64,000 bases of DNA. Origin: Stenotrophomonas sp. ESTM1D_MKCIP4_1. GTDB taxonomy: Bacteria > Pseudomonadota > Gammaproteobacteria > Xanthomonadales > Xanthomonadaceae. The stretch's first letter is position 1; every line of letters starts with the position of its first letter. This document shows, one piece after another, positions 3,892-39,611 of this stretch. Position numbers and translations under genes: made by a program. Location of the stretch: assembly GCF_003086895.1 (NCBI RefSeq), contig NZ_CP026004.1, positions 296,317 to 360,316 of the forward strand, read 5' to 3'. The notes under the pieces are model-generated. The model saw only the letters and a program-made list of their open reading frames with translations, was not told the DNA's origin and did not search any database.

Positions 3892-4092
3892 CGTTACCGC
3901 CCGGCCCATGCGCTACCCCCATCGCGCCGCATCCCGTAGACTGCGCGCCTCCCACGTACCGGCTCCCGACTGCAGTGATCACGCCACCCTGACCCTTGCC
4001 GCACCTCGGCAGCCGGCACGCCCGGCTCAGGAACCCGCGTCTTTCCACTGCAGCGCCACGTGGCCCCACGCCCGTGCGCGCGGAGTTTTCCC

Positions 4093-5547
4093 ATGCAAAC
4101 GTCCTACCCCCTGCGTCAGCAATGGCTCGGCAACATCCGTGGTGATCTGCTGTCCGGCATGGTCGTCGCCCTGGCCCTGATTCCCGAGGCCATCGCTTTC
4201 TCGCTCATCGCCGGCGTCGATCCCAAGGTCGGCCTGTACGCCGCGTTCTCCATCGCCGTGGTCACCGCCATCGCCGGCGGCCGCCCCGGCATGATTTCCG
4301 CCGCGACCGGCGCCATGGCGCTGGTAATGGTCGATCTGGTCAAGGACCACGGCCTGCAGTACCTGTTCGCCGCCAGCATCCTGGCCGGCCTGCTGCAGGT
4401 GCTGGCCGGCGTGTTCAAGCTCGGTTCGCTGATGCGCTTCGTCTCGCGCTCGGTCATCACCGGCTTCGTCAACGCACTGGCCATCCTCATCTTCCTGGCG
4501 CAGATGCCGGAACTGATCGGCCGTGGCCCCACCGTCTACGTGCTGTGCGCCGCCGCGCTGGCCATCATCTACCTGCTGCCGCGCATCACCCGCGCCGTGC
4601 CATCGCCGCTGGTCGCCATCGTCGTGCTCACCGCCGTGGTCATCGGCTTCGACGTGGATGTGCGCAGCGTGGGTGACATGGGCCAGCTGCCCGACAGCCT
4701 GCCACACTTCCTCATTCCCGATGTGCCCTTCACCTGGGACACCCTGCGCATCCTGCTGCCGGTCTCGGCCACGCTGGCCGTGGTCGGCCTGCTCGAATCA
4801 ATGATGACGCTGCAGATCGTCGAGGACATCACCGAGACGCCCAGCGAGCGCAACCGCGAATGCGTCGGCCAGGGCGTGGCCAACACGGTCACCGGCTTCC
4901 TGGGCGGCATGGCCGGCTGCGCGATGATCGGCCAGTCGGTCATCAACGTGACCTCCGGTGGCCGCGGCCGCCTGTCCTGCCTGGTGGCCGGCGTGCTGCT
5001 GCTGGTGCTGGTGGTGTACGGCAGCGACCTGGTGCGGCAGATCCCGATGGCCGCACTGGTGGCGGTGATGATCATGGTCAGCATCGGTACCTTCAGCTGG
5101 CGCTCGCTGCGTGACCTGCGCACCCATCCGCGCAGTTCCTCTGCGGTGATGCTGCTGACCGTGGTGGTCACCGTGGCCACCCACGATCTGGCCAAGGGCG
5201 TGCTCAGCGGTGTGCTGCTGTCGGCGCTGTTCTTCGCCCGCAAGGTCGGCCGCATGCTGGATGTGCAGCGCGAAGGCACGGGCGATACCCAGGTGTACCG
5301 CGTGCGCGGGCAGGTGTTCTTCGCCTCGGCCGGCCAGCTCGGTGCCGCCTTCGATTACCAGCATGTGGCGCCGAAGGTGCAGATCGACCTGCGCGATGCG
5401 CATCTATGGGATCTGACCGCCGTGGCTGCACTGGAGCGGGCGCAGGAAAAGCTGGCCGCGCATGGTGCGCAGGTGGAGGTGGTGGGCCTCAATGCGGCCA
5501 GCCAGACGCTGATCGAACAGGTGGGCGGCGCGCGCGGCGGGCACTGA
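4093..5547 (+). CDS. SulP-family inorganic anion transporter with C-terminal STAS domain
   Basis: A 484-residue inner-membrane protein of the SLC26/SulP family, which moves sulfate, bicarbonate or other anions by proton or sodium symport. The N-terminal [20 protein letters not shown] and [19 protein letters not shown] segments are classic SulP core sequence. The last 95 residues (from about 390) form a short STAS-like domain with [16 protein letters not shown]. The frame opens at 4060, but ATG 4093 has a GGAG seven bases upstream and begins the usual basic N-terminus. The transported anion is not determined. Neighbours give no hint, since it stands alone between palindromes. Confidence 0.88.
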
Positions 5548-5560
5548 GCAGGTCAGGGCG

Positions 5561-5590
5561 GTAGCGCCGGGCCATGCCCGGCGGATGTAG
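5561..5590 (+). repeat. SMAG-like palindrome after the SulP gene
   Basis: GTAGCGCCGGGCCATGCCCG, then GCGGATGTAG. The stem CGCCGGGC/GCCCGGCG sits between two GTAG tetranucleotides 14 bases downstream of the SulP stop codon. Confidence 0.7.
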
Positions 5591-5697
5591 CGGCGACGGA
5601 ACGCGCTCGGGCAACCGTTCCAAGCGCTTCCTGGTAATGGTCTGCATCACCCGCTGCCTGCGCTTCGCTCAGATAGGCGGCGATTCACCCATCGTCC

Positions 5698-6471
5698 TCA
5701 AAAAGCGCCGCCACCGCCCCCCGTACCGATCCCGGTGATGAGCTCGTCCAAGCCGGGGCGTGTATCGATGCCAAGCGGGGGAAGGCCGTTTGCCTGCCGT
5801 TCGCGGTCGAGGGTGGCAATGATCTGGTGCGCCATCAGCGTGGCCTGCATCTGCTGCTGGCGCGTCAGTGTTGTGCGGTCGCCCGCCAGTGCCACCGGCC
5901 AACTGCCGCGCAGCTCCGCCGCCTTGCGATACGCCGATGCCCGCAGCGGATCGGCGATGCCATCGACGCCGTGATCATGGATGCGGGCAAATGTCTCCAG
6001 CGCATAGATGGACCCGGCCTGCGCAGACGCCGCCAGGAACTCCATCGCTTCTCCGCGCCGGGAGGTCTCTCGCAGCGCCAGTTGTTCGGCGTCGAGGATG
6101 GCGGCCGGGTCCAGCCGTTCCTGTGCGGTGAACCCGCCTCTGGTCCCTCCGCGGAGCAGTGCATCCCGTGCCGCCTCGGTGGATGGATACCCGTTGCGTG
6201 CCAACCACGCCACATCGGCATCGGTGCGGGCGCCGGACAGGGTGTCACCCACACGCGGGGACGCCGAAAAGACCGTCCGTGCCACAGGGCGCTGGCCAGC
6301 CGCGATGGGCGCCGGTCCGCGCGCGGACGCGCCTGGCCCCGGCGAGGCGATGGAAGCGGGCGTTGGCCGGCCTGTCGCACCGTTCTGCGTTTGCCGGTTT
6401 GCTGTCCAGGCCACAACGGCCGTGATCGCAAGGCCTGCGAGTGCAAGTGCAATGGATCGTGCTGACAGCAT
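5698..6471 (-). CDS. hypothetical exported or membrane-anchored protein
   Basis: This 257-residue protein is not recognised. It begins with a hydrophobic stretch (residues 4-23, ALALAGLAITAVVAWTANRQ) that would act as a signal anchor or signal peptide. A Pro/Ala/Gly-rich linker (about 25-65) follows, then a helical region with a Sel1-like appearance around residues 140-185 (AQAGSIYALETFARIHDHGV), and a Gly-rich end. A GGGAGG lies six bases before the ATG. It is divergent from dusA. The Sel1-like reading is weak and no function is proposed. Confidence 0.6.
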   Translation of the reverse strand: MLSARSIALALAGLAITAVVAWTANRQTQNGATGRPTPASIASPGPGASARGPAPIAAGQRPVARTVFSASPRVGDTLSGARTDADVAWLARNGYPSTEAARDALLRGGTRGGFTAQERLDPAAILDAEQLALRETSRRGEAMEFLAASAQAGSIYALETFARIHDHGVDGIADPLRASAYRKAAELRGSWPVALAGDRTTLTRQQQMQATLMAHQIIATLDRERQANGLPPLGIDTRPGLDELITGIGTGGGGGAF

Positions 6472-24219: not shown

Positions 24220-25881
24220 GTGAACCCGATGCGCGTGTTGCTGCTGTCGTCCTGCCTCTTCGTCGGGGGCCTGGCCCATGCGGCCAACGACCTGCCCGGT
24301 GGCGGCATCGATCCGCAGGCATTGTCGCGCCACGTGCGTGTGCTGGCGTCGGACGAGTTTGAAGGCCGCGCGCCGGCCAGCGAAGGCGAAGAGCGCACCG
24401 TGCAGTATCTGATCGAGCAGTTCCGCAGCTACGGCCTGCAGCCCGGTGGCCCGGACGGCAGCTGGGTGCAGGCGGTGCCGCTGGTGCGCGCGCAGCTGGA
24501 CGGCCCGGCCAAGGCCAGCCTGCAGCTGAAGCACGGCAAGCGTGCGCTGGCCAATGGCGTGGACGTGACCCTGCAGAGCCTGCAGCCGCGCAAGCGCGTG
24601 CAGATCAGCAACGCGCCGCTGGTGTTCGTGGGCTACGGCATCGATGCACCGGAACGCCACTGGAACGATTACAAGGACGTGGACCTGCACGGCAAGATCG
24701 CCGTCATGCTCATCAATGACGCTGACTTCGAGGCCGATGCGCCGGGCGCGTTCGATGGCAAGGCGGTGACCTACTACGGCCGCTGGACCTACAAATTCGA
24801 AGAAGCCGCACGCCGCGGCGCCGAAGGCGTGCTGATCGTGCACGAGACGGCGCCGGCCGCCTACGGCTGGGCGACGGTGAAAAGCTCGGGCACCTCGCCG
24901 CTGTTCGATATCGAACGTGACCAGGCCGAGGCGATGGCCCAGCACACGCCGCTGCGTGGCTGGATGCAGCGCGAACTGGCCGAGGCGATCTTTGCCGACG
25001 CGGGCCTGGATTTCGACGCCGAGAAGCGCAAGGCCATGCAGGCCGACTTCCGTCCGGTTGCGCTGGACAACGCGAAGCTGAGCGTGGATTTCGCACTGAA
25101 GCGCGAACAGGTGGTGACCCGCAACGTGGTGGCCAAGCTGCCCGGTGGCGAGCACGGCGATGAGGCGGTGATCTTCTCCGCGCACTGGGATGCTTTCGGT
25201 ATCGGCCAGCCCGATGCCAAGGGTGACCGCATCCGCCACGGCGCCATCGACAATGCCACCGGTGTGGCCACCGTGCTGGAACTGGGCCGGGTCTTCGCCG
25301 CCGGCCCGCAGCCGCAGCGCAGCCTGTATTTCGTGGCACTCACCGCCGAGGAAAAGGGTCTGCTGGGGGCCAGCTACTACGCGGCACACCCGCTGGCGCC
25401 GCTGGAAAAGACCGCCGCCGTGCTGAACATCGAAATGTTCAGCCCGGATGGTGCGACCCGTGACATCGCCTCGTGGGGCAAGGGCCGGGTATCGCTGGAA
25501 GGCGACCTGGAACGCGTAGCCAAGGCGCGTGGCCGCAGCTACAGCCCGGACCCGAACCTGGAAGCGGGCTTCTTCTACCGCGCTGACCACTTCGCCTTCG
25601 CACGCCTGGGCGTGCCCGCGATCACCATCGGCCCGGGCCTGGACAAGCTGGACGGCGGCGTCGACGCTGGCCGCGCGCTCCGCGAGAAGTACTTTGCCGA
25701 GTGCTACCACCAGGCATGTGATGCCTGGACCCCGAGCTGGGACCCGGCGGGCCATGCTGCCGACACCCTGCTGGTCTACGACCTGGGCGCCGAGCTGGCC
25801 AACAGCCGCCGCTGGCCGCAGTGGGACAAGGATTCGGAGTTCCACGGCGCGCGTGAGAAGAGCGACGCCGCCCGCCGTTGA
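24220..25881 (+). CDS. exported M28-family aminopeptidase with PA domain
   Basis: A 553-residue zinc aminopeptidase predicted to act in the periplasm or outside the cell. A signal peptide (VLLLSSCLFVGGLAHAA) is followed by a domain containing a PA-like insertion (about residues 130-250) and the M28 zinc core: HWDAFG (first His/Asp ligand), GAIDNATGVATVLELGR, LTAEEKGLLGASYY with the catalytic Glu pair, and NIEMFSPDGA. Length and order fit peptidases of the YwaD/PSMA-like branch. Start is GTG 24220 or ATG 24229. A TACACT at 24183-24188 may be the -10 box. Confidence 0.88.
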   Translation: MNPMRVLLLSSCLFVGGLAHAANDLPGGGIDPQALSRHVRVLASDEFEGRAPASEGEERTVQYLIEQFRSYGLQPGGPDGSWVQAVPLVRAQLDGPAKASLQLKHGKRALANGVDVTLQSLQPRKRVQISNAPLVFVGYGIDAPERHWNDYKDVDLHGKIAVMLINDADFEADAPGAFDGKAVTYYGRWTYKFEEAARRGAEGVLIVHETAPAAYGWATVKSSGTSPLFDIERDQAEAMAQHTPLRGWMQRELAEAIFADAGLDFDAEKRKAMQADFRPVALDNAKLSVDFALKREQVVTRNVVAKLPGGEHGDEAVIFSAHWDAFGIGQPDAKGDRIRHGAIDNATGVATVLELGRVFAAGPQPQRSLYFVALTAEEKGLLGASYYAAHPLAPLEKTAAVLNIEMFSPDGATRDIASWGKGRVSLEGDLERVAKARGRSYSPDPNLEAGFFYRADHFAFARLGVPAITIGPGLDKLDGGVDAGRALREKYFAECYHQACDAWTPSWDPAGHAADTLLVYDLGAELANSRRWPQWDKDSEFHGAREKSDAARR

Positions 25882-25883
25882 GG

Positions 25884-26874
25884 CAATGCCGGCCGCTGGC
25901 CGGCAACGCGGCATGATGTCGCGCGGATGACGACGGGGGTAGAGTCGACCGTTGGTCGACTATGCGCGAAGCGCCGGTTTCATGCCCCTTGAGGGGAGAG
26001 CAGTCGACCAACGGTCGACTCTACCCAGCCGCAATCATCGGCGCCTGCGCCGGCGCAGCAGCGTCCACGCGCTCCCAGCGCGGGCAGCGGAGGTAGTGCC
26101 GGCCGCTGGCCGGCAACGCGGCATGACGACGCGCGGATGACGACGGGGGTAGAGTCGACCGTTGGTCGACTATGCGCGAAGCGCCGGTTTCATGCCCCTT
26201 GAGGGGAGAGCAGTCGACCAACGGTCGACTCTACCCAGCCGCCATCATCGGCGCCTGCGCCGGCGCAGCAGCGTCCACGCGCTCCCGGCGCGGGCAGCGG
26301 AGGTAGTGCCGGCCGCTGGCCGGCAACGCGGCATGATGTCGCGCGGATGACGACGGGGGTAGAGTCGACCGTTGGTCGACTATGCGCGAAGCGCCGGTTT
26401 CATGCCCCTTGAGGGGAGAGCAGTCGACCAACGGTCGACTCTACCCAGCCGCCATCATCGGCGCCTGCGCCGGCGCAGCAGCGTCCACGCGCTCCCAGCG
26501 CGGGCAGCGGAGGTAGTGCCGGCCGCTGGCCGGCAACGCGGCATGACGACGCGCGGATGACGACGGGGGTAGAGTCGACCGTTGGTCGACTATGCGCGAA
26601 GCGCCGGTTTCATGCCCCTTGAGGGGAGAGCAGTCGACCAACGGTCGACTCTACCCAGCCGCCATCATCGGCGCCTGCGCCGGCGCAGCAGCGTCCACGC
26701 GCTCCCGGCGCGGGCAGCGGAGGTAGTGCCGGCCGCTGGCCGGCAACGCGGCATGATGTCGCGCGGATGACGACGGGGGTAGAGTCGACCGTTGGTCGAC
26801 TATGCGCGAAGCGCCGGTTTCATGCCCCTTGAGGGGAGAGCAGTCGACCAACGGTCGGCTCTACCCAGCCGGCA
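25884..26874. repeat. 210-bp tandem array of SMAG dimers with gene fragments
   Basis: Five dimers beginning GTAGAGTCGACCGTTGGTCG lie at 25939, 26149, 26359, 26569 and 26779, exactly 210 bases apart. Each unit also holds a GCCGGCC-type SMAG and about 60 bases homologous to the 3' end of the neighbouring gene at 26875. Units alternate between two variants (GATGTC versus GACGAC after GGCAT, and CCCAGCG versus CCCGGCG), giving a 420-base higher-order period. Short ORFs repeated here are a by-product. No gene lies inside. Confidence 0.95.
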
Positions 26875-27234
26875 TCACCTACGCCGAGACCGGCGCAGCA
26901 GCGTCCACGCGCCCCAGGCGCTGGCAGCGAACGCGGCCAGATAGAACACCACCATCGTGCGCAGGCCAACAGGCGATCCGGGATGGATGCCGCGATGCAG
27001 GCGCAGTCGCATCGAGCTGTGGCCGCTGCCCAGATCCAACGCCAGCTGCAGCGCCAGCGCGGCACAGAACACCAGCAGCGCCACCCCGAAACCAAGACGC
27101 GGCCACGAGGCCTGCGCGTCAGGGCGGCGCAGCAGCCAGGCCAGCGCCGTGGCGGTGGCCAGCACCACCGCGATCCACATCAGCGGCGACGCGGGAGAGG
27201 CAGCAGCCACCGGCATTGCACCGGTGGCTGCCAT
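26875..27234 (-). CDS. small membrane protein, hypothetical
   Basis: A 119-residue protein, not recognised, with three hydrophobic segments (about residues 18-35, 50-72 and 88-110) and an Arg-rich C-terminus, LLRRSRRR. It starts 13 bases after the stop of the MFS transporter upstream and is probably co-transcribed with it. A GGGGG run about nine bases before the ATG may be its ribosome-binding site. Its 3' end is the likely source of the gene fragment repeated in the adjacent 210-bp array. Confidence 0.6.
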   Translation of the reverse strand: MAATGAMPVAAASPASPLMWIAVVLATATALAWLLRRPDAQASWPRLGFGVALLVFCAALALQLALDLGSGHSSMRLRLHRGIHPGSPVGLRTMVVFYLAAFAASAWGAWTLLRRSRRR

Positions 27235-28582: not shown

Positions 28583-28805
28583 CTGGGTGAGGATCCTCGA
28601 TGCGGTGCTTCCATGCGGGAAAGATCGGTGCCAGGGGCGCGCGTGGGGCGCTGCCAGCCAGCCTCCTAGGTACTGCATCCCACGTCAACGCCGGGTGCCG
28701 GAGGGGCGGGCAGGGCATGGGGACCGCACAGGGTGACAGCGTGAGGGGGGAGGGACCATAGCTAGATCGTCGTACGCGATGGTCCCCATTTGTCACATGA
28801 TCGAC

Positions 28806-29933
28806 TCAATGAAGCGCTGAAGCCGTCCCGTCGAGCGGGGAAACGATGGCGTCCCTGAAGTTTCTCCTGGCCCAGGTCCTCAAAATGGCTGCGCTAGCTG
28901 CCAGAAGCGCTATTGACACCAGAAGCTGCCACATCGGCACGTCCACGTAGAGCAGGCGGATCGGCATTGCCGCCATTGAAGTGAACGGAAAGAGCGACAT
29001 GGCCTGCATGAATAGTCCCTCCGGTGCCCGTAGACCCCCAAAACCGATCATGATCATGGTCAGAGGAAAGGCCGCGAGGGTGTTGCGGAATGCTGAATGG
29101 GGTGACCGTATTGCGGTAGCGCACGCGGCAAAGAACCAGTTCCACAGCATGAGACCCAGGAAACAGAATGCAAACAGGCCAACTACGAGGACCAGGCTCC
29201 GGCCAGAAATGTCTGCGAACACGCTGGTCGATCCCGACATGAGCATCCAAGCGAAAGCCGCGTAAACGCCATAGATCGTGATCGTTTTCATTCCATGACA
29301 GATGGATGCTGCAACTTTGCAGTCGAGCCAGAAGCCCGGCGGAGAGGCACTGAGGATCATCTCTGTCACATGAGCAAAGCGCTCGCCGAGCAAGCCCTGA
29401 AACAACATGCCCAGGCAGCCGAGAATGGCAAGTGTGGTCAGTACGACCATGCTGATCGAAAGAGCGGTGAGTGATGAGTTCGGGAGAACCGGTACCCCGG
29501 AGCGATCCATTACCTTCAGTGACGCCGGTGAATCAGCATGCTGCAGCTGGTCGGCGGACACTCCGAGCGTCTCAAGCAAGCGTTGACGCTGAAGCGAATC
29601 GAGCGCGCGTTGCAACTCGGCTATCCAGCCGGGTGACTGTGTGACGCGGAGTACATAGTCACTTGAATCCATCGATAGCGTTGGCTGTCCGTCGGCGACG
29701 ACGCCGCCCTGGGTATTGGTGAAATGGAAGCGTCCCTCACTCATTCCAGCCACGGGAGTTCCTCCGGCTGGAATCTGGATCGTGGTCGCGGCTTCCCTCG
29801 CCAGAATGGCATCGCCTCCCAGTTTCACCAAGGCAATCACTGCCAGCAGGAGAAGACCAACCAGCTCGCCGCGAATATCCAGGTGCCGCCTGAACTCAAA
29901 GCCGATGACCCTGGCATAGTGGCTCATGCGCAT
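28806..29933 (-). CDS. ABC transporter permease of the peptide-like operon
   Basis: A 375-residue ABC-2-type permease. One helix near the N-terminus (GELVGLLLLAVIALVKLGG, about 22-40) is followed by a large non-membrane region (about 42-150) and then five or six helices (for example ALSISMVVLTTLAILGCLGM, and AFCFLGLMLWNWFFAACATA). This layout fits NatB/ABC-2 exporters that carry an extracytoplasmic loop after helix 1. It is the last gene of the minus-strand operon and overlaps the ATPase gene by 10 bases, so they form one exporter. The DNA is lower in GC than flanking genes. Confidence 0.75.
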   Translation of the reverse strand: MRMSHYARVIGFEFRRHLDIRGELVGLLLLAVIALVKLGGDAILAREAATTIQIPAGGTPVAGMSEGRFHFTNTQGGVVADGQPTLSMDSSDYVLRVTQSPGWIAELQRALDSLQRQRLLETLGVSADQLQHADSPASLKVMDRSGVPVLPNSSLTALSISMVVLTTLAILGCLGMLFQGLLGERFAHVTEMILSASPPGFWLDCKVAASICHGMKTITIYGVYAAFAWMLMSGSTSVFADISGRSLVLVVGLFAFCFLGLMLWNWFFAACATAIRSPHSAFRNTLAAFPLTMIMIGFGGLRAPEGLFMQAMSLFPFTSMAAMPIRLLYVDVPMWQLLVSIALLAASAAILRTWARRNFRDAIVSPLDGTASALH

Positions 29934-30661
29934 GCTCTCTCCTCCCGTGACGTCGATGCCTGCGATGGGGAATCGCCCAAGTCATCCTGGTCATGAGCGC
30001 CCGCGGGCAGATGAAGGTCCTCAGCCTTGGCAGGCTGGAGTTGCGCGTTCTTGAGCACCAGGATCCTCCCGCAGAACCGCTGCAGAAGTTCAATGTGATG
30101 CGCCGACAGGAGCACCGCTGCACCTTGACGCGCTGCGGCCGAGATCAGCTCGACGACCGCAACCTGATTGACCGGATCCAGTCCTGAAAAGGGCTCGTCC
30201 AGTACAAGCACCTTCGGTGAATGAAGCATGCACGCTGCAATCTGGAGCTTCTGCAGGTTGCCCTTTGACAGGCTGGAAACCCGGTGTGACGCGCGATCAA
30301 GAAGCCCGATCTTGCCCAGCCAAAGGTCACGTGCGCGGACCGCATCCGATCTCGTCATGCCTCTCATGGCAGACCAGAACTCCAGTGACCGGCCTACGGT
30401 AACCTCGGGGAACAGGCTCCGGGCTTCCGGCAGATAGCCGATGTCAGACCATGGAGCCCGCGCTCCGCTCTCACTCCCGGCAACGGAGACGACGCCGGAA
30501 TCGGCCGCGATGAGGTTGCAGAGGATACGGAACAGCGTCGTTTTGCCGGCACCATTGGCCCCTATGATTCCGACAATCTCTCCAGCATCGACCTGCACTT
30601 CCAGATCATGCAGGATTACGCGTGATCCGTAAGTTTTGCAAAGGCGTTCAGCGTGCAGCAT
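29924..30661 (-). CDS. ABC transporter ATP-binding protein of the peptide-like operon
   Basis: A 245-residue ATPase. Walker A is GANGAGKTT (about residues 36-44), the signature loop is a variant, SSLSKGNLQKLQ, Walker B is VLVLDEPFSGLDP, and the switch His is in LLSAHHIELL. The SKGN signature variant is common in ABC-2 exporters of the bacteriocin or self-resistance type. ATG 30661 has GGGAG upstream and lies inside the end of the preceding gene. The stop overlaps the permease start. It should energise export of whatever this operon makes. Confidence 0.88.
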   Translation of the reverse strand: MLHAERLCKTYGSRVILHDLEVQVDAGEIVGIIGANGAGKTTLFRILCNLIAADSGVVSVAGSESGARAPWSDIGYLPEARSLFPEVTVGRSLEFWSAMRGMTRSDAVRARDLWLGKIGLLDRASHRVSSLSKGNLQKLQIAACMLHSPKVLVLDEPFSGLDPVNQVAVVELISAAARQGAAVLLSAHHIELLQRFCGRILVLKNAQLQPAKAEDLHLPAGAHDQDDLGDSPSQASTSREERACA

Positions 30662-31574
30662 CTGAGGCTCCCTTCTCAATCCTTTCGGCAATCTGTCGAG
30701 CTCTGGATTGCATGAAACGGCTGTGCCGGCTCTCAACCATTGCGATCAACTGCAGCGACGCCTCACGGCTGCGAGAATTTGCGACCAGCGCCTCCAATGC
30801 AGCCATCCGTACACGCTCCATTGGATGGCATCGGAAAATGTCTCTCAGCAGCTGCTGCGCCTCTCCATCCGTATCTCCGGCGGCAATCATGAACAGGGCG
30901 GATGCACTGGACCGATTGATGATCTGTGAGATCGTCCCTGTACCAGGTTCAAACTCATACTGATCCATGGTTACGCTTCTCAGGGAGTGCTCCATGATGT
31001 TGATGCTCACGGAGAACTCATCGGGCGCCATTTGCTGGTGTACGTCCCTGAACGCCCTGTACAGAAGGATGTTTCCCTTCTTCAACTGAGAGCGCTCGGT
31101 GAAGCGAAGATCCACTTTCTCGCCAGGGATTCCGGCTACGGAGGCGTAGTCGTACTCAAAGTAGTCGCTTTCGTATCCAGGTCCCTGGTAGCCAATCGTC
31201 AGAAAGTTGAAATTGTGGTCATGCGGAACACCGTAGAAGAATGCTCCGGGGCCACTTGCGCCAAGAATCTCGTCATTCTTTCCGGGCCAGAAGCATGCGC
31301 GAATGAAGTAGCTCTGACCTGAAGACTGGGGGGCGTGAAGCATGATGACTTGTGGTGTGTAGTCATTGTCGACCTGGATTTCCTTCGAATCCTTGAGCTC
31401 GGCGCAAATGACATCGCTGAGAAATGTACGGTTGTTTCCCAGCCTCTTGAGCATGGGAGCCATCGCCAACATCGAGTGTTGGTCACGTGGATCGAATGAC
31501 GATTGCTGGAGGTGATCGACAAGATCCGTCAGTGTGATCGAATCAATCGACGGGTCTACTATCTGGACGGGCAT
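30648..31574 (-). CDS. cupin-like protein with HEAT-like C-terminus (candidate peptide-modifying oxygenase)
   Basis: This 308-residue protein is not a family I can name. The middle part looks like a cupin: GVPHDHNFNFLTIGYQGPG (His118 and His120, resembling the first cupin motif), acidic residues in GYESDYFEYD (about 133-142), and KKGNILLYRAFRDVHQQM with His179 resembling the second motif. These could bind iron as in non-haem oxygenases. The last 65 residues contain HPMERVRMAALEAL, a HEAT-repeat-like helix pair. It starts 6 bases after the stop of the paralogue upstream. A peptide-tailoring role is inferred from context only. Confidence 0.65.
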   Translation of the reverse strand: MPVQIVDPSIDSITLTDLVDHLQQSSFDPRDQHSMLAMAPMLKRLGNNRTFLSDVICAELKDSKEIQVDNDYTPQVIMLHAPQSSGQSYFIRACFWPGKNDEILGASGPGAFFYGVPHDHNFNFLTIGYQGPGYESDYFEYDYASVAGIPGEKVDLRFTERSQLKKGNILLYRAFRDVHQQMAPDEFSVSINIMEHSLRSVTMDQYEFEPGTGTISQIINRSSASALFMIAAGDTDGEAQQLLRDIFRCHPMERVRMAALEALVANSRSREASLQLIAMVESRHSRFMQSRARQIAERIEKGASDAAR

Positions 31575-31580
31575 GGAATT

Positions 31581-32531
31581 TCATCCTTGTTCCAATGAAC
31601 GGGCCGCGAGGTTTCTGATCTCATCATTCGGATCGTCTTCTCTCATTTCCGACAGCCGCGTAGAGGCCGATTCCGCATCGACCTGATAGAGCGCCCTGAG
31701 GGCACTCCAGCGCACGAACGTCGTCGGATGGTGAGATAGATCAAGAAGCGAACTCACAGCTCCGTTGCCGCATAGATGCGCGAGTGCCGCAGCGATGAGC
31801 TGGAGACGGGAGTCAGTGACGCTGGCTGCTGTGCAGCCGGCCAGCCGGCTGGTCCTGAGGGAGAAGTGCCTGGTTGATTCACATCTCGGCAGCGCGGCAA
31901 GGCAAACGACCATCGACGTCGGCGCATCCCCTTGGAGCAGTCGCATGCCCTGTCTACCGCCCTCAAGAAACACGAAGTCTCCTGATCGGGAATCCCCATT
32001 GGAGGGAGGGCCCAGCACCGGCGCCGCTGCTGCGTCGTGCACAACGGAGAACGTCTGGTGGTTGACGTGCTCTGTCTGCGCGAAGAGCACCAGCGAGTCC
32101 GTCCCGGTGATCGTGATCCCTGTCTCGATGTTACCCTCTGAAGCTGCCGTGAGCTGGCACGGCGGCCTGTGCATGTAGTGAACCTGCACGAACTCGTCCT
32201 TGTAGATGACCATCCCAGCCAGAGGGTGCTTGACGAAGAATCGTCCAGGCGTCGTGTAGAGCGCGCTTTCAAGATGGTTCCGGCATTCCCTGCCGAAGTG
32301 CTGCTTCAGCGTCGCCAGATCGAACTCCCGGCAGATGGAAAGCATCAATTCACGATTCATCTCGGCGCTGCCGTCACCGCGGATGCGTTTGCTCCAGCCG
32401 CGAATTCGATTCGCTTGTCCTGTTGCTTCAAGCGCGCTGAGGAGTGAGGTGTTCCTTCCATGAGCAGTCTTCAGTTTCTGAAGCTGGGAAGGATCATCAG
32501 CCAGGTCAAGCATTTGCCTCGGACGTTCCAT
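31581..32531 (-). CDS. paralogous cupin-like/HEAT-like protein, metal site degenerate
   Basis: A 316-residue protein, not recognised by name. Its last 70 residues (HPTTFVRWSALRAL and following) align with the HEAT-like end of the next gene, and SGDFVFLEGGRQGMRLL aligns with the second cupin-like motif there. The HxH metal pair is missing (nearby are only VHYMHRPP), so it may be a non-catalytic partner. The frame opens at 32600, but ATG 32531 has GGAGG four bases upstream. It follows the second peptide ORF by 49 bases and precedes the intact paralogue by 6 bases, so the two proteins are probably made together. Confidence 0.65.
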   Translation of the reverse strand: MERPRQMLDLADDPSQLQKLKTAHGRNTSLLSALEATGQANRIRGWSKRIRGDGSAEMNRELMLSICREFDLATLKQHFGRECRNHLESALYTTPGRFFVKHPLAGMVIYKDEFVQVHYMHRPPCQLTAASEGNIETGITITGTDSLVLFAQTEHVNHQTFSVVHDAAAAPVLGPPSNGDSRSGDFVFLEGGRQGMRLLQGDAPTSMVVCLAALPRCESTRHFSLRTSRLAGCTAASVTDSRLQLIAAALAHLCGNGAVSSLLDLSHHPTTFVRWSALRALYQVDAESASTRLSEMREDDPNDEIRNLAARSLEQG

Positions 32532-32580
32532 ACCGCCTCCAATGCGGTGGGCCGGGTATCCAGCCCACCGCCGATTCACG

Positions 32581-32724
32581 TCAGACCGGATGAATGCCAC
32601 GATTGATCAGGATGCCGACAACGACGCCAACTGCGGCGCAACCAGCTCCCGTCGTCTCGATCAGGATGCATGAACCATGCATACCAACCGGGAGTTTCTG
32701 CCGCGGCAGTGCGGTGGGTTTCAT
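32581..32724 (-). CDS. small peptide, candidate precursor 2
   Basis: A 47-residue ORF. The N-terminal part, MKPTALPRQKLPVGMHG, is basic and Pro-containing; the C-terminal part is very hydrophobic and Gly/Val-rich (GAGCAAVGVVVGILI). The segment LPVGMHGSCILIE matches the pattern PV-x-G-x-C-x-IE of the two modules upstream. AAGGA lies eight bases before the ATG and overlaps the stop codon of the previous ORF, which points to coupled translation. It could be a ribosomal peptide precursor, a leaderless bacteriocin or a small membrane peptide. Assigned on motif and context, with no family recognised. Confidence 0.6.
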   Translation of the reverse strand: MKPTALPRQKLPVGMHGSCILIETTGAGCAAVGVVVGILINRGIHPV

Positions 32725-32735
32725 GTCTGTGTTCC

Positions 32736-32978
32736 TTATACGGGGAGAACGGCGATGACGATTGCGACGGCAATCGTGACTGGTTCAATCGGTGAGCAGA
32801 GCATTGAAGTGCCAGCCAATCCCACGGCTGGGGTGAGGGGAAGCGGAATGCCATCCATTGGTTTCTCCTTTTCAGATCGGTGGCCCAACTCATGCTGGGC
32901 AGATCCGTTCTCAATGATCACGAAGCAGGGATTCATGACGTGGATCCCAGTTACTGGAGCTTCGGTAGAAAGCGTCAT
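32736..32978 (-). CDS. small peptide ORF with two modules, candidate precursor(s) 0 and 1
   Basis: An 80-codon ORF from ATG 32978. Its first 40 residues contain APVTGIHVMNPCFVIIENG and its last 40 begin MDGIPLPLTPAVGLAGTSML, then CSPIE and a hydrophobic end, AVAIVIAVLPV. Both halves carry the C-x-IE pattern of the peptide at 32581. An internal ATG at 32858 has a near-perfect AAGGAG six bases upstream, so the second half is probably also, or only, translated as a 40-residue peptide. The start at 32978 has a weaker AGG. Three related modules before tailoring-like and export genes suggest a peptide natural product or toxin family. Confidence 0.55.
   Translation of the reverse strand: MTLSTEAPVTGIHVMNPCFVIIENGSAQHELGHRSEKEKPMDGIPLPLTPAVGLAGTSMLCSPIEPVTIAVAIVIAVLPV
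32865..32870 (-). promoter_or_regulatory. strong internal ribosome-binding site
   Basis: AAGGAG on the minus strand, six bases before ATG 32858, inside the 80-codon ORF. It is much better than the site before ATG 32978 and argues that the 40-residue peptide is an independent product. Confidence 0.7.
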
Positions 32979-33149
32979 GCTTTGCCTGTGAATTCCGCTC
33001 CCAAGGGAAGAGGCCGCTAGGGCTTCAGCCCACTGGTGGTGCCAGAAACTCTGACTGGGCCGTGGGGTCGCAGATCCAGTTCGGGAACCGGGGTTATTTC
33101 CGTCACCCGAACCTTCTAGAATCCCTTTTCCCCTGCCTGCTGGTGCGTC

Positions 33150-34055
33150 ATGTCGGCTTCCCCTGTTCCTTCTGCGGCTGCCCCCCGGGGTGGCCTTGTC
33201 GCGCTGGCCCTGCTGCTGGTCTACGTGGTCTGGGGCTCGACCTACTTGGGCATCGCCAAGGCCCTGCACGGCGGCGCGCTGCCGCTCACCATGGTCTCCG
33301 GCAGCCGCTTCATCATCGCCGGCGGCCTGATGTACCTGGCCCTGCGCCTGTTCTGGAAGATGCCGCGGCCGAGCCTGCGGCAGTGGCGCAACCTGATCAT
33401 CATGGGCGTGACCATGCTGGTGCTGGGCAACGGCATGGTGGTGCTGGCCGAGCGTGAAGTGTCCTCCGGCCTGGCCGCCACGGCAGTGGCCTCGGTGCCG
33501 TTGTGGATGGCGCTGTTCTCCGCGTTTCGCGGCCAGCACGCCAGCCGCGGCGAATGGCTGGGCATCGCGGTCGGTTTCATCGGCGTGGTCTGGCTCAATG
33601 CGGGCAGCAGCCTCACGGCGTCGCCCACCGGGCTGGTGCTGCTGTTGATCGCACCGGTCGGCTGGGCATTCGGTTCGGTGTGGGCGCGCGGCCTGGATCT
33701 GCCTGGTCCGTTCATGACCGCTGCCGGGCAGATGATCTGCGGTGGCGTGCTGCTGGTGTTGATCGGCCTGGCGGTGGGCGAGCGCCCGACCACGCTGCCC
33801 GATACCGGCGGCCTGCTGGCGATGGCCTACCTGTGTGTGTTCGGGTCCATCGTGGCCTTCACCGCCTATGTCTGGCTGCTGCACAACGTGCGCCCGGCGC
33901 TGGCCGGCAGCTATGCCTACGTCAACCCGGTCATCGCGGTGCTGCTGGGCGCGGCCTTGAATGGCGAGCAGTTCGGCTGGCGCGATTTCCTGGCCATGGC
34001 GGTCATCCTGCTGGGCGTGGTGGTGCTGACCATGGCCCGGACCCGGAAAAAGTGA
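33150..34055 (+). CDS. EamA/DMT-family transporter (YedA-like)
   Basis: A 301-residue inner-membrane protein with ten predicted helices in two EamA repeats. The start of the first repeat, LLLVYVVWGSTYLGIAKAL, and the second-half segment VRPALAGSYAYVNPVIAVLL are typical of the YedA/RhaT-like drug/metabolite transporter group. It lacks soluble domains. The substrate is unknown; such proteins export amino acids or other small metabolites. It is divergent from the peptide operon (172 bases between starts) and has normal high-GC composition. The next DMT gene begins 10 bases after its stop. Confidence 0.85.
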   Translation: MSASPVPSAAAPRGGLVALALLLVYVVWGSTYLGIAKALHGGALPLTMVSGSRFIIAGGLMYLALRLFWKMPRPSLRQWRNLIIMGVTMLVLGNGMVVLAEREVSSGLAATAVASVPLWMALFSAFRGQHASRGEWLGIAVGFIGVVWLNAGSSLTASPTGLVLLLIAPVGWAFGSVWARGLDLPGPFMTAAGQMICGGVLLVLIGLAVGERPTTLPDTGGLLAMAYLCVFGSIVAFTAYVWLLHNVRPALAGSYAYVNPVIAVLLGAALNGEQFGWRDFLAMAVILLGVVVLTMARTRKK

Positions 34056-35065: not shown

Positions 35066-36382
35066 TCAGGTTTCGCGCAGCGCGGTGGTGATCGGCAGGC
35101 GCGCCGCGCGCAGTGCCGGGAACAACCCGCCGACCAGGCCGATGCCCAGCGCCCACTTCAAGCCATTCCACAGCAGCTCCGGCGAGACGTGGAACTTGAA
35201 CACCACCGCGCTGAAATTGCTGCCGATGGTGGACACGCTGTAGCCGTTGAACAGCAGCCAGGCGACCGCGCAGCCCAGCAACCCGCCCAGCAGTGCCAGC
35301 AGCATGGTTTCCAGCATCACCGCTGTCACCACGGGCAGGCCGCGGAAGCCGATGGCCCGCATGGTGGCGATCTCGCGTGCTCGCGTCGCGACCGCGGCAT
35401 ACATGGTGTTGAGCGCGCCGAACACCGCGCCCACCGCCATGATCGTGCCGATGACCTTGCCAAGGATGTCGATCAGCTTGGTCAGGCCGCCGCCCTGCTT
35501 GCTGTAGTACGCACGGGTGGTTTCCACATCCAGCTTCAGGCGCGGATCGGCGGCCACGGCGGCCTTGAACTGCTCGAAACCGGGCTTGCCATCGGTGCGC
35601 ACGCTGATCGACTGCCAGGCACTGCGCTGGTAGGTGGTGGCCAGCGTATCGGCATCGGTCCACATCTCCGAATCATGCGCATCCCCACTGGCAAACACGC
35701 CCACCACGGTCCAGGTCTGGTTGCCCAGGGTCAGCGTCCTGCCAACCTCAAGGTTGCGGAACTGTCCCTGCGCGCCCTGGCCCACCACGATCTCGCGCAG
35801 GCCGGTGCCGAATTTGCGGCCCTGCACGATCTTCACCTTGTCATGCACCGCCCACGCCTGCGGGCCGACGCCGCGGAACTGCGCGTTGACGTCGGTGCCA
35901 TCGGCCTTGGAGACCAGGTTCACCACCTGCGAAAGCTCCGGTGACAGCAGCGACCGGCCTTCGCCATCGCGGCTGATGCCGGGCAGGGTGGAGAGCATGG
36001 GTACCTGTTCACGGGTGATGACCGAATTGGTTTCGGCCTGCGAACCGCCACGCAGCACGATGGCGGTGGTGTCATCGCCGGTGTTGCTGAGCGTGGCCTG
36101 GAAGCCTTCGCCCATGGCGAGCATGGCCACCAGCACGCCGACCACGCCGGCAATGCCGACCACGATCACCGAAGATGCGCCCCAGCGCTGCGGCAGGCTG
36201 GCGATGCCGATGCGGGTGGCCGCCAGGGCCAGGCGCCCGCTGCGGGTCAGCAGCAGCCACAGCGCCACCAGCACAGCCACGGCCAGCACGCCCAATGCCG
36301 GCAGGCTGATCCACACCACCAGCCCCACTGCCAGCAGCAGCACGGTCAGTGCGTTCCCCATCCACTTCCTGAGCTTGTTCAT
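35066..36382 (-). CDS. ABC transporter permease, MacB/FtsX-type (second permease)
   Basis: A 438-residue permease of the MacB/LolCE type. Two helices at the N-terminus (about 10-45) precede the region that holds the periplasmic MacB-type core domain (about 85-280). Three C-terminal helices follow, with VATRAREIATMRAIGFRG, the coupling segment of FtsX-domain permeases, and GLFPALRAARLPITTALRET, the family's standard end. It is the last gene of a four-gene operon (membrane fusion protein, ATPase, two permeases) and starts 12 bases after the first permease stops. Substrate unknown. Confidence 0.87.
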   Translation of the reverse strand: MNKLRKWMGNALTVLLLAVGLVVWISLPALGVLAVAVLVALWLLLTRSGRLALAATRIGIASLPQRWGASSVIVVGIAGVVGVLVAMLAMGEGFQATLSNTGDDTTAIVLRGGSQAETNSVITREQVPMLSTLPGISRDGEGRSLLSPELSQVVNLVSKADGTDVNAQFRGVGPQAWAVHDKVKIVQGRKFGTGLREIVVGQGAQGQFRNLEVGRTLTLGNQTWTVVGVFASGDAHDSEMWTDADTLATTYQRSAWQSISVRTDGKPGFEQFKAAVAADPRLKLDVETTRAYYSKQGGGLTKLIDILGKVIGTIMAVGAVFGALNTMYAAVATRAREIATMRAIGFRGLPVVTAVMLETMLLALLGGLLGCAVAWLLFNGYSVSTIGSNFSAVVFKFHVSPELLWNGLKWALGIGLVGGLFPALRAARLPITTALRET

Positions 36383-36394
36383 TGGATGTTCTCC

Positions 36395-37552
36395 TCAGCG
36401 GCCGGCCAGCGCATCGACGATCTTCAGGCGCTTGGCGCGCAGCGCGGGCAGCAGCCCGACCACGATGCCGATCACCACGATCAGGCCCACGCCCACCAGC
36501 CAGGTAGGCGTGGGGACATGCGGTGGCAGCATGCCCATGCTCTTCGGCGCGATGGCCGGCAGCACCAGCGCGGCCAGGCCCATGCCGATCAGGCCACCGA
36601 GGCCGATCAGCAGCACCGACTCGACCATCACCAGGGTCAGCACGGTGCTGTCCTTGAAGCCCAGCGTCTTCAGCGTGGCCAGTTCGGGAATGCGTTCGCG
36701 CACGGCCTGGGCCATGGTGTTGCCGGTCAACAGCAGCAGGGTGAAGAACACCGCGCCCATGATCGAGGTGACGATCATGCCGATATCCGCGAACTGCTTG
36801 ACGAACGCCTGCTGGAACGCCGATTCGGTCTGGGTCTTGGTCTCGTGGTCGGAGTTGGCCGAGATCGCATCGATGGCCTGGGCCACCCGCGACGCATGGT
36901 CGGGGTTGTCCAGGGTGATCGTGTACCAGCTCACCTGGTTCTTGATGTAGTCGTTGGATTCGTCGAAGTACTTCCAGTTCATCATCAGCTGGCGCTCTTC
37001 GTTGCCCGCCTGCGCGCGGTCCTTGGAACGGAAGATGCCCTTCAGTTCCAGCGGCCAGTCATTGCTGCCGCCACGCGGGAAGATGGTTGCCTGCAGCGGG
37101 ATGGTGTCGCCGATCTTCCAACCGAACTGGTTGGCCAGGCTTTCGCCGACGATGGCGCCGGTGCGGGTCTGCTTCCAGTCTTCCAGCTGCGCCGGGTCGA
37201 TCTGCAGTTCGCGGTAGACATCGAAGTAGTTGGGCGACACCGAGAAATTCGGGAAGAAGTTCTTCGGGTCCTGGTAGATGCCGCCGAACCACATGCCGTA
37301 GGCCACGTCGCGCACGCCATCGACCTGGCGGATCTGCGTTTCCAGGCGGATCGGCAGCGACTGGGTGATCGACAGCCGCGAGGCGGTGACTAGGCGGTTG
37401 GCACCTTCCACGCTGCCGCCGGAATTGAATGCCACGCGCACCGAATCGAGCATGCCGAACAGCAGGAAGGCCGCGACCACCGAAAGCAGGGTCAACAGGG
37501 TCCGGGTGCGGCTGCGGAACAGCTGCGCCCAGACCAGGGAAAAGTATTTCAT
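36395..37552 (-). CDS. ABC transporter permease, MacB/FtsX-type (first permease)
   Basis: A 385-residue permease with one N-terminal helix (TLLTLLSVVAAFLLFGMLDS, about 17-36), a periplasmic MacB-like domain of about 200 residues, and three C-terminal helices. AVRERIPELATLKTLGFKD matches the FtsX coupling helix and LLPALRAKRLKIVDALAGR the C-terminal signature. It is one of two unequal permeases in the operon and starts 14 bases after the ATPase stop. MacAB-like systems with split permeases export peptides, siderophores or toxins, or move lipoproteins; which applies is not clear. Confidence 0.87.
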   Translation of the reverse strand: MKYFSLVWAQLFRSRTRTLLTLLSVVAAFLLFGMLDSVRVAFNSGGSVEGANRLVTASRLSITQSLPIRLETQIRQVDGVRDVAYGMWFGGIYQDPKNFFPNFSVSPNYFDVYRELQIDPAQLEDWKQTRTGAIVGESLANQFGWKIGDTIPLQATIFPRGGSNDWPLELKGIFRSKDRAQAGNEERQLMMNWKYFDESNDYIKNQVSWYTITLDNPDHASRVAQAIDAISANSDHETKTQTESAFQQAFVKQFADIGMIVTSIMGAVFFTLLLLTGNTMAQAVRERIPELATLKTLGFKDSTVLTLVMVESVLLIGLGGLIGMGLAALVLPAIAPKSMGMLPPHVPTPTWLVGVGLIVVIGIVVGLLPALRAKRLKIVDALAGR

Positions 37553-37566
37553 CGCCGCAGCCTCCG

Positions 37567-38256
<690 letters not shown>

Positions 38257-38360
38257 CGGGGTTCTCCACGAAAGGCGGGACACGGGGACGCGCGCCGGCC
38301 ACGGGCCGGAGGGCATGCATGGAACGGTGCTGCCGGCGGCGCCATGACAGCGCCAGACCG

Positions 38361-39611
38361 TTACTGCGCTTGTTTCAGCCGAACCCTGGCGCCATCGCGC
38401 AGAGTGTCCGGCGGGCTGACCACCACGCTCTCGCCCGCACTGACACCCTTCAGCAGCTGACGGTCCTTGCCCATCGCCTGGCCGGCCTGCACGGCACGCT
38501 GCTGTACGCGGTCGGCATCGCCCAGCACGAAGGCGACGGTGGCGCCATCGCGTTCGACCACGGCGGTGGCCGGTACGCGCACACCCTGCGGCGTGCTGGC
38601 GGCTGCCTGCGGCGGTGCCTGTTCCAGGAAGCTGACCCGTACACCCATTTCCGGAACGATGCGCGGGTCCTTCACCTTCAGCGCCACGCGCACCTTCACC
38701 GTGGCCTTGCCGCGGTCGGCGGTGGGAATGATGGCGATCACCTCGCCGGGGATCTTCCATTCCGGGTAGGCATTGAGCGTGGCTTCCACCGGCATCTTCG
38801 GCTGCACGCGGCCGATGAAGGCTTCGCCCACTTCCACTTCGATTTCCAGCGAATCCATGTCGACGATGGTGCCGATGCCGGTGCGGGTGAAGCCGCCGCC
38901 GGCCGACAGCGGCGACACGATCTCGCCCGGCTGCGCGGCCTTGGCGGTGACCACGCCAGAGAACGGCGCGCGCACGATGTTGTTGTCCACGCCCAGATCG
39001 GCGATGGCGAGCTGGTCGCTGGCCACCTTGACGTTGCGCTGGGCGGTATCCAGCTGCGCGCGGATGCTGTCCCGCTGGGCCACGGCCTGGTCGTACTGCG
39101 AACGCGACACCAGCTGCTGGCCGACCAGCGCCTGCAGGCGGCTGGCTTCGGCGGCGGCCTGGCGCTGCTGCGCCTGCAGGCCGGCCACCTGTGCACGCGC
39201 GGCCTGCACCTGCGAGGCGGACAGGCTGCGCTGTGCATCGGCATCGATCGGGTCCAGCGTGGCCATGATCTGCCCGGCCTCCACCCGCATGCCTTCTTCG
39301 ATCATCACTTCGCGCACCTTGCCGGTGATCTTGGCCGAGACCGTGGCCATGCGCCGCGCCACCACGTAGCCGCTGGCATCCAGCACTGAGCTGCTGGCGT
39401 TGCCCTGCTGGATCGCCACGGCCGGTGCGGTGTCGACTTCAGGCGCCGGCTCGCGGCCGAACAGCAGGAAGGCACCGCCGGCCAACAGCAGCACGATCAC
39501 CACCAACGCGATCCACAGCCAGCGACGTCCGCCCGGACCATCCCCGGAGGACGGCGGCGGGCTCTTGCGGTCGATACGGAGTTCCTTCAACAACTCGGCA
39601 GAAGCGTTCAT
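38361..39611 (-). CDS. membrane fusion (periplasmic adaptor) protein, MacA/HlyD-like
   Basis: A 416-residue adaptor with one N-terminal helix (LWIALVVIVLLLAGGAFLLF, about 32-51). A biotinyl-lipoyl-like half (SAKITGKVREVMIEEGMRVE), an alpha-helical hairpin rich in Ala/Gln (about 120-190), the second lipoyl half (IVRAPFSGVVTAKAAQPGEI) and beta-barrel domains follow. This is the first gene of the operon with the ATPase and two permeases. Together they would form a MacAB-like tripartite efflux system needing an outer-membrane TolC partner encoded elsewhere. It is divergent from the ABC exporter at 39765. Confidence 0.9.
   Translation of the reverse strand: MNASAELLKELRIDRKSPPPSSGDGPGGRRWLWIALVVIVLLLAGGAFLLFGREPAPEVDTAPAVAIQQGNASSSVLDASGYVVARRMATVSAKITGKVREVMIEEGMRVEAGQIMATLDPIDADAQRSLSASQVQAARAQVAGLQAQQRQAAAEASRLQALVGQQLVSRSQYDQAVAQRDSIRAQLDTAQRNVKVASDQLAIADLGVDNNIVRAPFSGVVTAKAAQPGEIVSPLSAGGGFTRTGIGTIVDMDSLEIEVEVGEAFIGRVQPKMPVEATLNAYPEWKIPGEVIAIIPTADRGKATVKVRVALKVKDPRIVPEMGVRVSFLEQAPPQAAASTPQGVRVPATAVVERDGATVAFVLGDADRVQQRAVQAGQAMGKDRQLLKGVSAGESVVVSPPDTLRDGARVRLKQAQ

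Follow-up and report, generated by a model that had tools for sequence, protein, structure and literature searches.

A 64,000-nucleotide stretch of a single-contig Stenotrophomonas genome of 4,475,880 bases (G000:C1:296317-360316; hereafter the window) contains six consecutive minus-strand genes that probably encode a peptide maturation module resembling those of ribosomally synthesized and post-translationally modified peptides (RiPPs). Where close relatives of the encoded proteins carry a name, it is Stenotrophomonas. The components would be one or two short precursors, a three-histidine (3-His) enzyme, here termed c0, and its degenerate partner, c1. The peptide gene, c1 and c0 form the fixed unit of the module; the peptide open reading frames (ORFs) accompany the c1-c0 pair across genomes and bacterial classes, at 56 of 69 loci and in 45 of the 56 Sphingomonadaceae genomes that have c0. 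Because the peptides evolve with fewer nonsynonymous than synonymous substitutions (dN < dS) and recur across classes, this layout is more than a product of chance. The genes, their pairing, the peptide homology, the co-occurrence, the predicted fold and the conservation of its ligands all derive from sequence or computation. An initial annotation of the window had proposed a peptide pathway of no recognised class, with two related cupin-like proteins as putative iron enzymes and an exporter. Its central idea, precursor-like peptides beside putative metal-dependent oxygenases, is strengthened by the co-occurrence and by the 3-His fold of c0, and its ORFs, intergenic gaps and low GC content stand; the start of the first ORF, the picture of two similar enzymes and the place of the exporter in the core do not.

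The two peptide genes head the series. Peptide gene 1 (32736..32858, 40 residues) begins at an ATG behind AAGGAG and encodes a C-terminus rich in Ile, Val and Ala. The 80-codon ORF originally drawn here (32978-32736) is over-extended: in the three relatives that share this peptide (L044, L045 and L046) only an ORF of 40 codons is conserved, with a start equivalent to 32858 and again behind AAGGAG, and the 40 codons before this internal ATG are interrupted by 3, 1 and 1 stops, respectively, with no protein sequence in common with the window. Peptide gene 2 (32581..32724, 47 residues) places a Cys within a GAGC stretch ahead of its aliphatic C-terminus. The dN/dS ratios among the window relatives are 0.00-0.30 for peptide gene 1 and 0.07-0.10 for peptide gene 2 (six pairs each), so that both short ORFs behave as genes, and dN is below dS in all nine of 11 further peptide pairs for which dS is defined. 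The downstream genes are c1 (31581..32531, 316 residues), c0 (30648..31574, 308 residues), an ABC transporter ATPase (29924..30661; ABC_tran, 3.5e-27) and an ABC-2 type permease (28806..29933; ABC2_membrane_3, 4.9e-15). The remaining coordinates, the gaps of 11, 49 and 6 bases and the two terminal overlaps agree with the first description.

The wider survey covered 69 non-duplicate loci with 75 c0 matches, a split gene in L095 being counted twice. A script listed the ORFs that precede c1, and candidates were then picked by eye, yielding 77 peptides (72 distinct) of 36-63 residues, a size easily missed in annotation. Common to them are a hydrophobic C-terminus and, at the N-terminus, a motif close to L-P-x-L...G-x-x-G-S/T; as a written pattern, the first half of the motif occurs in 47 of the 72 distinct peptides and the second in 52. 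Two peptides are encoded at the window, L015, L016, L093 and L095, and tandem copies at L033 and L035. Since selection by eye can introduce bias, peptide profiles were also compared across classes, a test in which most single E-values are weak and the evidence lies in the position of the matches. When 6,364 small ORFs from alphaproteobacterial loci were searched with a gammaproteobacterial profile, 11 matched at E <= 1, every one of them upstream of c1, and 26 of the 32 matches at E <= 10 had this position too. The reverse profile found this position in 19 of 22 matches at E <= 1 and 25 of 34 at E <= 10; its misses at the stricter threshold were a tandem copy in L033, probably another in L035, and an unrelated ORF in L020. 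Among 149 whole Sphingomonadaceae genomes, a peptide profile matched 45, all of them within the 56 that have c0 and each 908-1165 nucleotides upstream of it; the other 93 genomes gave no match. Fisher's test for this co-occurrence gives 5e-28, a value overstated by the relatedness of the genomes, and 8 of the 45 genomes had supplied rows to the profile. By dN < dS and cross-class homology, the peptide genes encode precursor-like peptides.

Profile-profile comparison identifies c1 and c0 as distant paralogues (probability 95%, E 3e-8, 12% identity over 254 columns), in agreement with the relatedness first proposed. The end of c1 lies just upstream of c0 in 73 of the 75 matches, with an estimated gap of -23 to +34 nucleotides. 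An alignment of c1 searched against 150 genomes of the family matched 14, seven of them through the HEAT part only; the other seven all have c0. Judged by sequence, c1 diverges far more than c0: identity of the window protein to alphaproteobacterial rows is approximately 12-18% for c1 and 34-46% for c0. Among the window relatives, dN/dS is 0.17-0.27 for c1 and 0.08-0.13 for c0. The HEAT repeats claimed for the pair are borne out by HEAT_2 in c1 (2.8e-8); the same model reaches only 0.063 in c0, below the cut-off, and E <= 0.01 in 12 of 56 c0 relatives. The pair also shows some irregular forms. The genome of L093 has a further, divergent c1-c0 pair, encoded on the opposite strand and with no recognised peptide, and two frames now make up both the c0 gene of L095 and the c1 gene of L099, which suggests decaying copies. 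Apparent c1-c0 fusions in L100 and L103 proved on translation to be out-of-frame read-through in the first halves of long frames.

Structure prediction and motif order indicate a thiol-dioxygenase (cysteine dioxygenase) fold with a 3-His site for c0, followed by C-terminal HEAT-type helices. The putative ligands, H118, H120 and H179, are invariant in 74 of 74 rows and align with the site of authentic thiol dioxygenase relatives; N192 is conserved in all 74 rows as well. The predicted structure of c1 suggests a thiol-dioxygenase-like cupin fold with C-terminal HEAT repeats and no conserved metal ligands, and no His column reaches 40% in its 61 rows. The cupin assignment of the initial annotation is therefore upheld as a fold, though not by any cupin model of Pfam or NCBIfam, and its picture of two similar enzymes gives way to one protein that keeps the metal ligands and one that has lost them. 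Sequence searches for a thiol dioxygenase were negative for c0 and c1 alike, with no CDO_I (PF05995) match in any of 56 c0 members, and none of the Pfam and NCBIfam models tried describes c0. A sequence search of solved structures returned one chance-level row for c0 (E 0.2) and only HEAT or helical-repeat rows for c1. Several c0 relatives are labelled transposase by their sources; no Pfam or NCBIfam transposase model matches the 56 members, and the predicted fold is that of a thiol-dioxygenase-like cupin.

A plausible sequence of events begins with one or more precursor peptides made together with the c1-c0 partnership. As a putative HEAT-fused, mononuclear 3-His metalloenzyme, c0 would most likely bind iron and oxidise the C-terminal part of the peptide, whereas c1, a putative pseudo-enzyme with HEAT repeats, would most likely bind and present the peptide as part of a heterodimer with c0. 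This division of labour is proposed because c0 has a site of the mononuclear iron oxygenase type and c1 does not. That the reaction oxidises aliphatic residues of the hydrophobic stretch is a guess. A dedicated ABC transporter would export the product in Stenotrophomonas and certain other Gammaproteobacteria; most Sphingomonadaceae have no linked exporter. The gene for the putative tailoring protein adjoins that for the precursor by linkage and co-occurrence, and the precursor would be its substrate. A more specific proposal is quite possible but falls short of probable, namely that the loci of Sphingomonadales, Xanthomonadales and Alteromonadales-type bacteria represent a new RiPP class that pairs a catalytic with an inactive thiol-dioxygenase-fold/HEAT protein to oxidise aliphatic residues of a hydrophobic peptide, giving an exported antimicrobial or signal in Gammaproteobacteria and an oxygen-dependent, cell-associated housekeeping peptide in Sphingomonadaceae.

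Several observations weigh against RiPP-like maturation. No peptide was found at 13 of the 69 loci (one of these starts inside c1), and 11 of the 56 Sphingomonadaceae genomes with c0 lack a peptide-profile match; three of the 11 have a candidate picked by eye, and in one that was inspected no peptide was seen. The aligned peptides have no target residue in common, and Cys is absent from 42 of the 72 distinct sequences. No RiPP recognition element (RRE) model occurs among the general Pfam and NCBIfam matches of the window proteins, the only protease candidate among the genes scanned near the pairs is the hydrolase of L096 described below, and exporter linkage is a minority trait. Alignment also places Ser-Asn-Met in window c0 at the Ser-His-Tyr positions of cysteine dioxygenase, and c0, compared by profile with the thiol dioxygenases of Xanthomonadales, shows no match (probability 0.1, E 0.53).

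The alternatives explain parts of this record. Unmodified bacteriocin or signal peptides, with c1 and c0 serving as peptide-binding chaperones or immunity proteins and the metal site as an oxygen or metal sensor, would account for the hydrophobic peptides, the two-peptide layouts, the ABC exporters and the Alteromonadales-type loci in which HlyD-ABC-MacB genes, accompanied by histidine kinase and LytTR regulator genes, lie near the pair, and HEAT repeats do bind proteins. We nevertheless consider this explanation unlikely: a 3-His site invariant over 74 widely divergent rows is hard to explain without metal chemistry, and in the Sphingomonadaceae the peptide is retained with the pair at a conserved location in the chromosome with no exporter. 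The fold and 3-His site of c0 would equally suit a thiol dioxygenase that converts a peptide Cys of the G-P-x-C type to sulfinic acid, or prepares it for a further step. Both window peptides contain Cys, as the initial annotation noted, and in 15 distinct peptides, by pattern count, Cys directly follows a G/A-G/P pair. Only 30 of the 72 distinct peptides contain the residue noted in the initial annotation, however, so a peptide thiol cannot be the general substrate of c0. Because Ser-Asn-Met also replaces Ser-His-Tyr, ordinary thiol dioxygenation is improbable as the general reaction, and we regard this alternative as distinctly unlikely.

Least probable, and very unlikely, is a toxin-antitoxin or defence module in which the hydrophobic peptide is a membrane toxin controlled by c1 and c0. 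The short hydrophobic peptides, the sporadic island in Stenotrophomonas and a weak match of the HEAT part of c1 to a PADLOC HEAT model (E 2e-6) could be taken this way, but PADLOC matches neither c0 nor either peptide, no phage record and only two plasmid records match c0, and the conserved place in Sphingomonadales, the exporter and regulator linkage elsewhere and the enzyme-like site all fit it poorly.

The RiPP-like reading bears some resemblance to known systems and differs from each. Thiol dioxygenase folds are known from the oxidation of small molecules and of N-terminal cysteines, the latter being the substrate of plant cysteine oxidases. Compared with these enzymes, cysteine dioxygenase, the 3-mercaptopropionate and mercaptosuccinate dioxygenases, ADO and ergothioneine dioxygenase, c0 is HEAT-fused, paired with an inactive paralogue, linked to a precursor-like peptide gene and altered at Ser-His-Tyr, and it lacks both a CDO_I and a profile-profile match. 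Two-peptide and other class II bacteriocins are hydrophobic peptides, sometimes complementary pairs, associated with an ABC exporter. The window shares the peptides and the exporter, but its ABC protein matches only ABC_tran and other nucleotide-binding-domain models among 25 listed families, with no peptidase C39 model; no peptidase model occurs among the family-model matches of the window proteins, and no double-glycine leader was seen by eye in the peptides. We know of no counterpart of c1 and c0 in class II bacteriocin clusters. RiPP pathways with an iron oxygenase and a partner protein, such as those of the multinuclear iron enzymes (MNIO, DUF692) with an RRE partner and the biphenomycin-type pathway, likewise combine a short precursor gene, an iron-type oxygenase and a dedicated adjoining partner; c0, in contrast, is no MNIO, having a predicted mononuclear 3-His cupin site, and is paired with a degenerate paralogue in place of an RRE protein. 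The nearest printed chemistry found is that of PbsQ, a cupin-like, JmjC-related hydroxylase of a biphenomycin-type RiPP pathway (PMC12257519); the predicted fold of c0 is of the thiol-dioxygenase rather than the JmjC-related kind. No description of the module appears among the full-text literature matches listed, a collection from which subscription journals are mostly missing, so that its absence from print is unproven. The module is thus apparently undescribed, with a real chance of representing a new class. If RiPP-like maturation is correct, a thiol-dioxygenase fold acting in peptide maturation with a pseudo-enzyme partner would open chemistry unpredicted by the family models tried, and the presence of the three-gene unit in many Sphingomonadaceae makes both chemistry and physiology directly testable.

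The exporter was initially regarded as integral to the pathway. An ABC ATPase on the same strand within 5 kb occurs in 17 of 70 rows, and additionally in L044-L046, which the overlap rule of the script missed; at some loci the available sequence does not extend to 5 kb. No Sphingomonadaceae locus other than L014 has one. The initial annotation would have been refuted by homologues of the cupin-like proteins lacking small peptide ORFs or an exporter; homologues lacking an exporter do occur, and at 13 of the 69 loci no peptide could be found. In ten loci, including the window, c0 is followed by the ATPase, mostly with the ABC-2 permease. Several Alteromonadales-type and Xanthomonadales loci, and L014 and L018, have Yip1, HlyD, ABC and MacB genes within 5 kb, joined in some by a histidine kinase or LytTR regulator gene. 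Neither setting is present at most Sphingomonadaceae loci, where the unit has a conserved location flanked by thioesterase genes and by ruvX, DUF3089, AI-2E transporter, signal peptidase, acpS and pdxJ genes. In L096 (module at oriented 4048-5866) the pair precedes an alpha/beta hydrolase of the TAP/S33 aminopeptidase kind, which may be a leader protease, and an ABC ATPase. In other genera of the window's family (L097-L099 and L102-L105) the pair has no recognisable peptide upstream; the peptide may have decayed or been displaced, or the substrate may be another.

Matches to c0 were found in 10 of 91 genomes sampled from the genus (five at E 1e-113 or better), 19 of 296 from the family, only 3 of 370 from the class (one of them weak, another the genome of the window itself), 17 of 397 from the phylum and 56 of 149 from the Sphingomonadaceae, the last in 38 of 91 genera; these samples overlap. 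The c0 tree does not keep the classes apart and forces at least four changes of the alpha label, making transfer between classes likely.

In the window the module lies on an island (28782..33083) absent from most relatives, with edges set by comparison with L155 and L156 and placed by other relatives within 28697-28782 and 33083-33109. Its GC content of 0.577, against 0.677 for the remainder of the window and 0.650-0.709 in 511 other stretches of equal length, substantiates the low value reported at first. The neighbouring transporter gene has 81 matches in 80 of 90 genus genomes; in the 30 loci fetched around it the flanks are directly joined in 27 and the island is present in three, the window included. 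L044, L045 and L046 carry the island between the same flanking gene families, and L047, in this neighbourhood as well, has a single peptide with c1 and c0 but neither the neighbouring transporter gene nor the exporter pair. Insertion as a mobile element was considered and set aside: none of the six ORFs matches a transposase or integrase model, and the search of phage records gave no match and that of plasmid records two. A scan of 28600-33300 found no promoter-like sites and four terminator-like sites, with 3.5 expected by chance. At the left edge, directly after the permease stop, an inverted repeat (GGGACCAT...ATGGTCCC, 28752-28786) was not called by the terminator scan. Minus-strand genes at 35066-39611, which begin approximately 2 kb from the island on its upstream side, encode HlyD, an ABC ATPase and two MacB-type permeases; they may form a companion exporter, as the same families adjoin the pair in Alteromonadales-type loci, or may be a coincidence. 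Elsewhere in the window, a 210-base unit is repeated in five tandem copies with 96% matching (25880-26929) and contains two short palindromes, which we take to be of the repetitive extragenic element kind.

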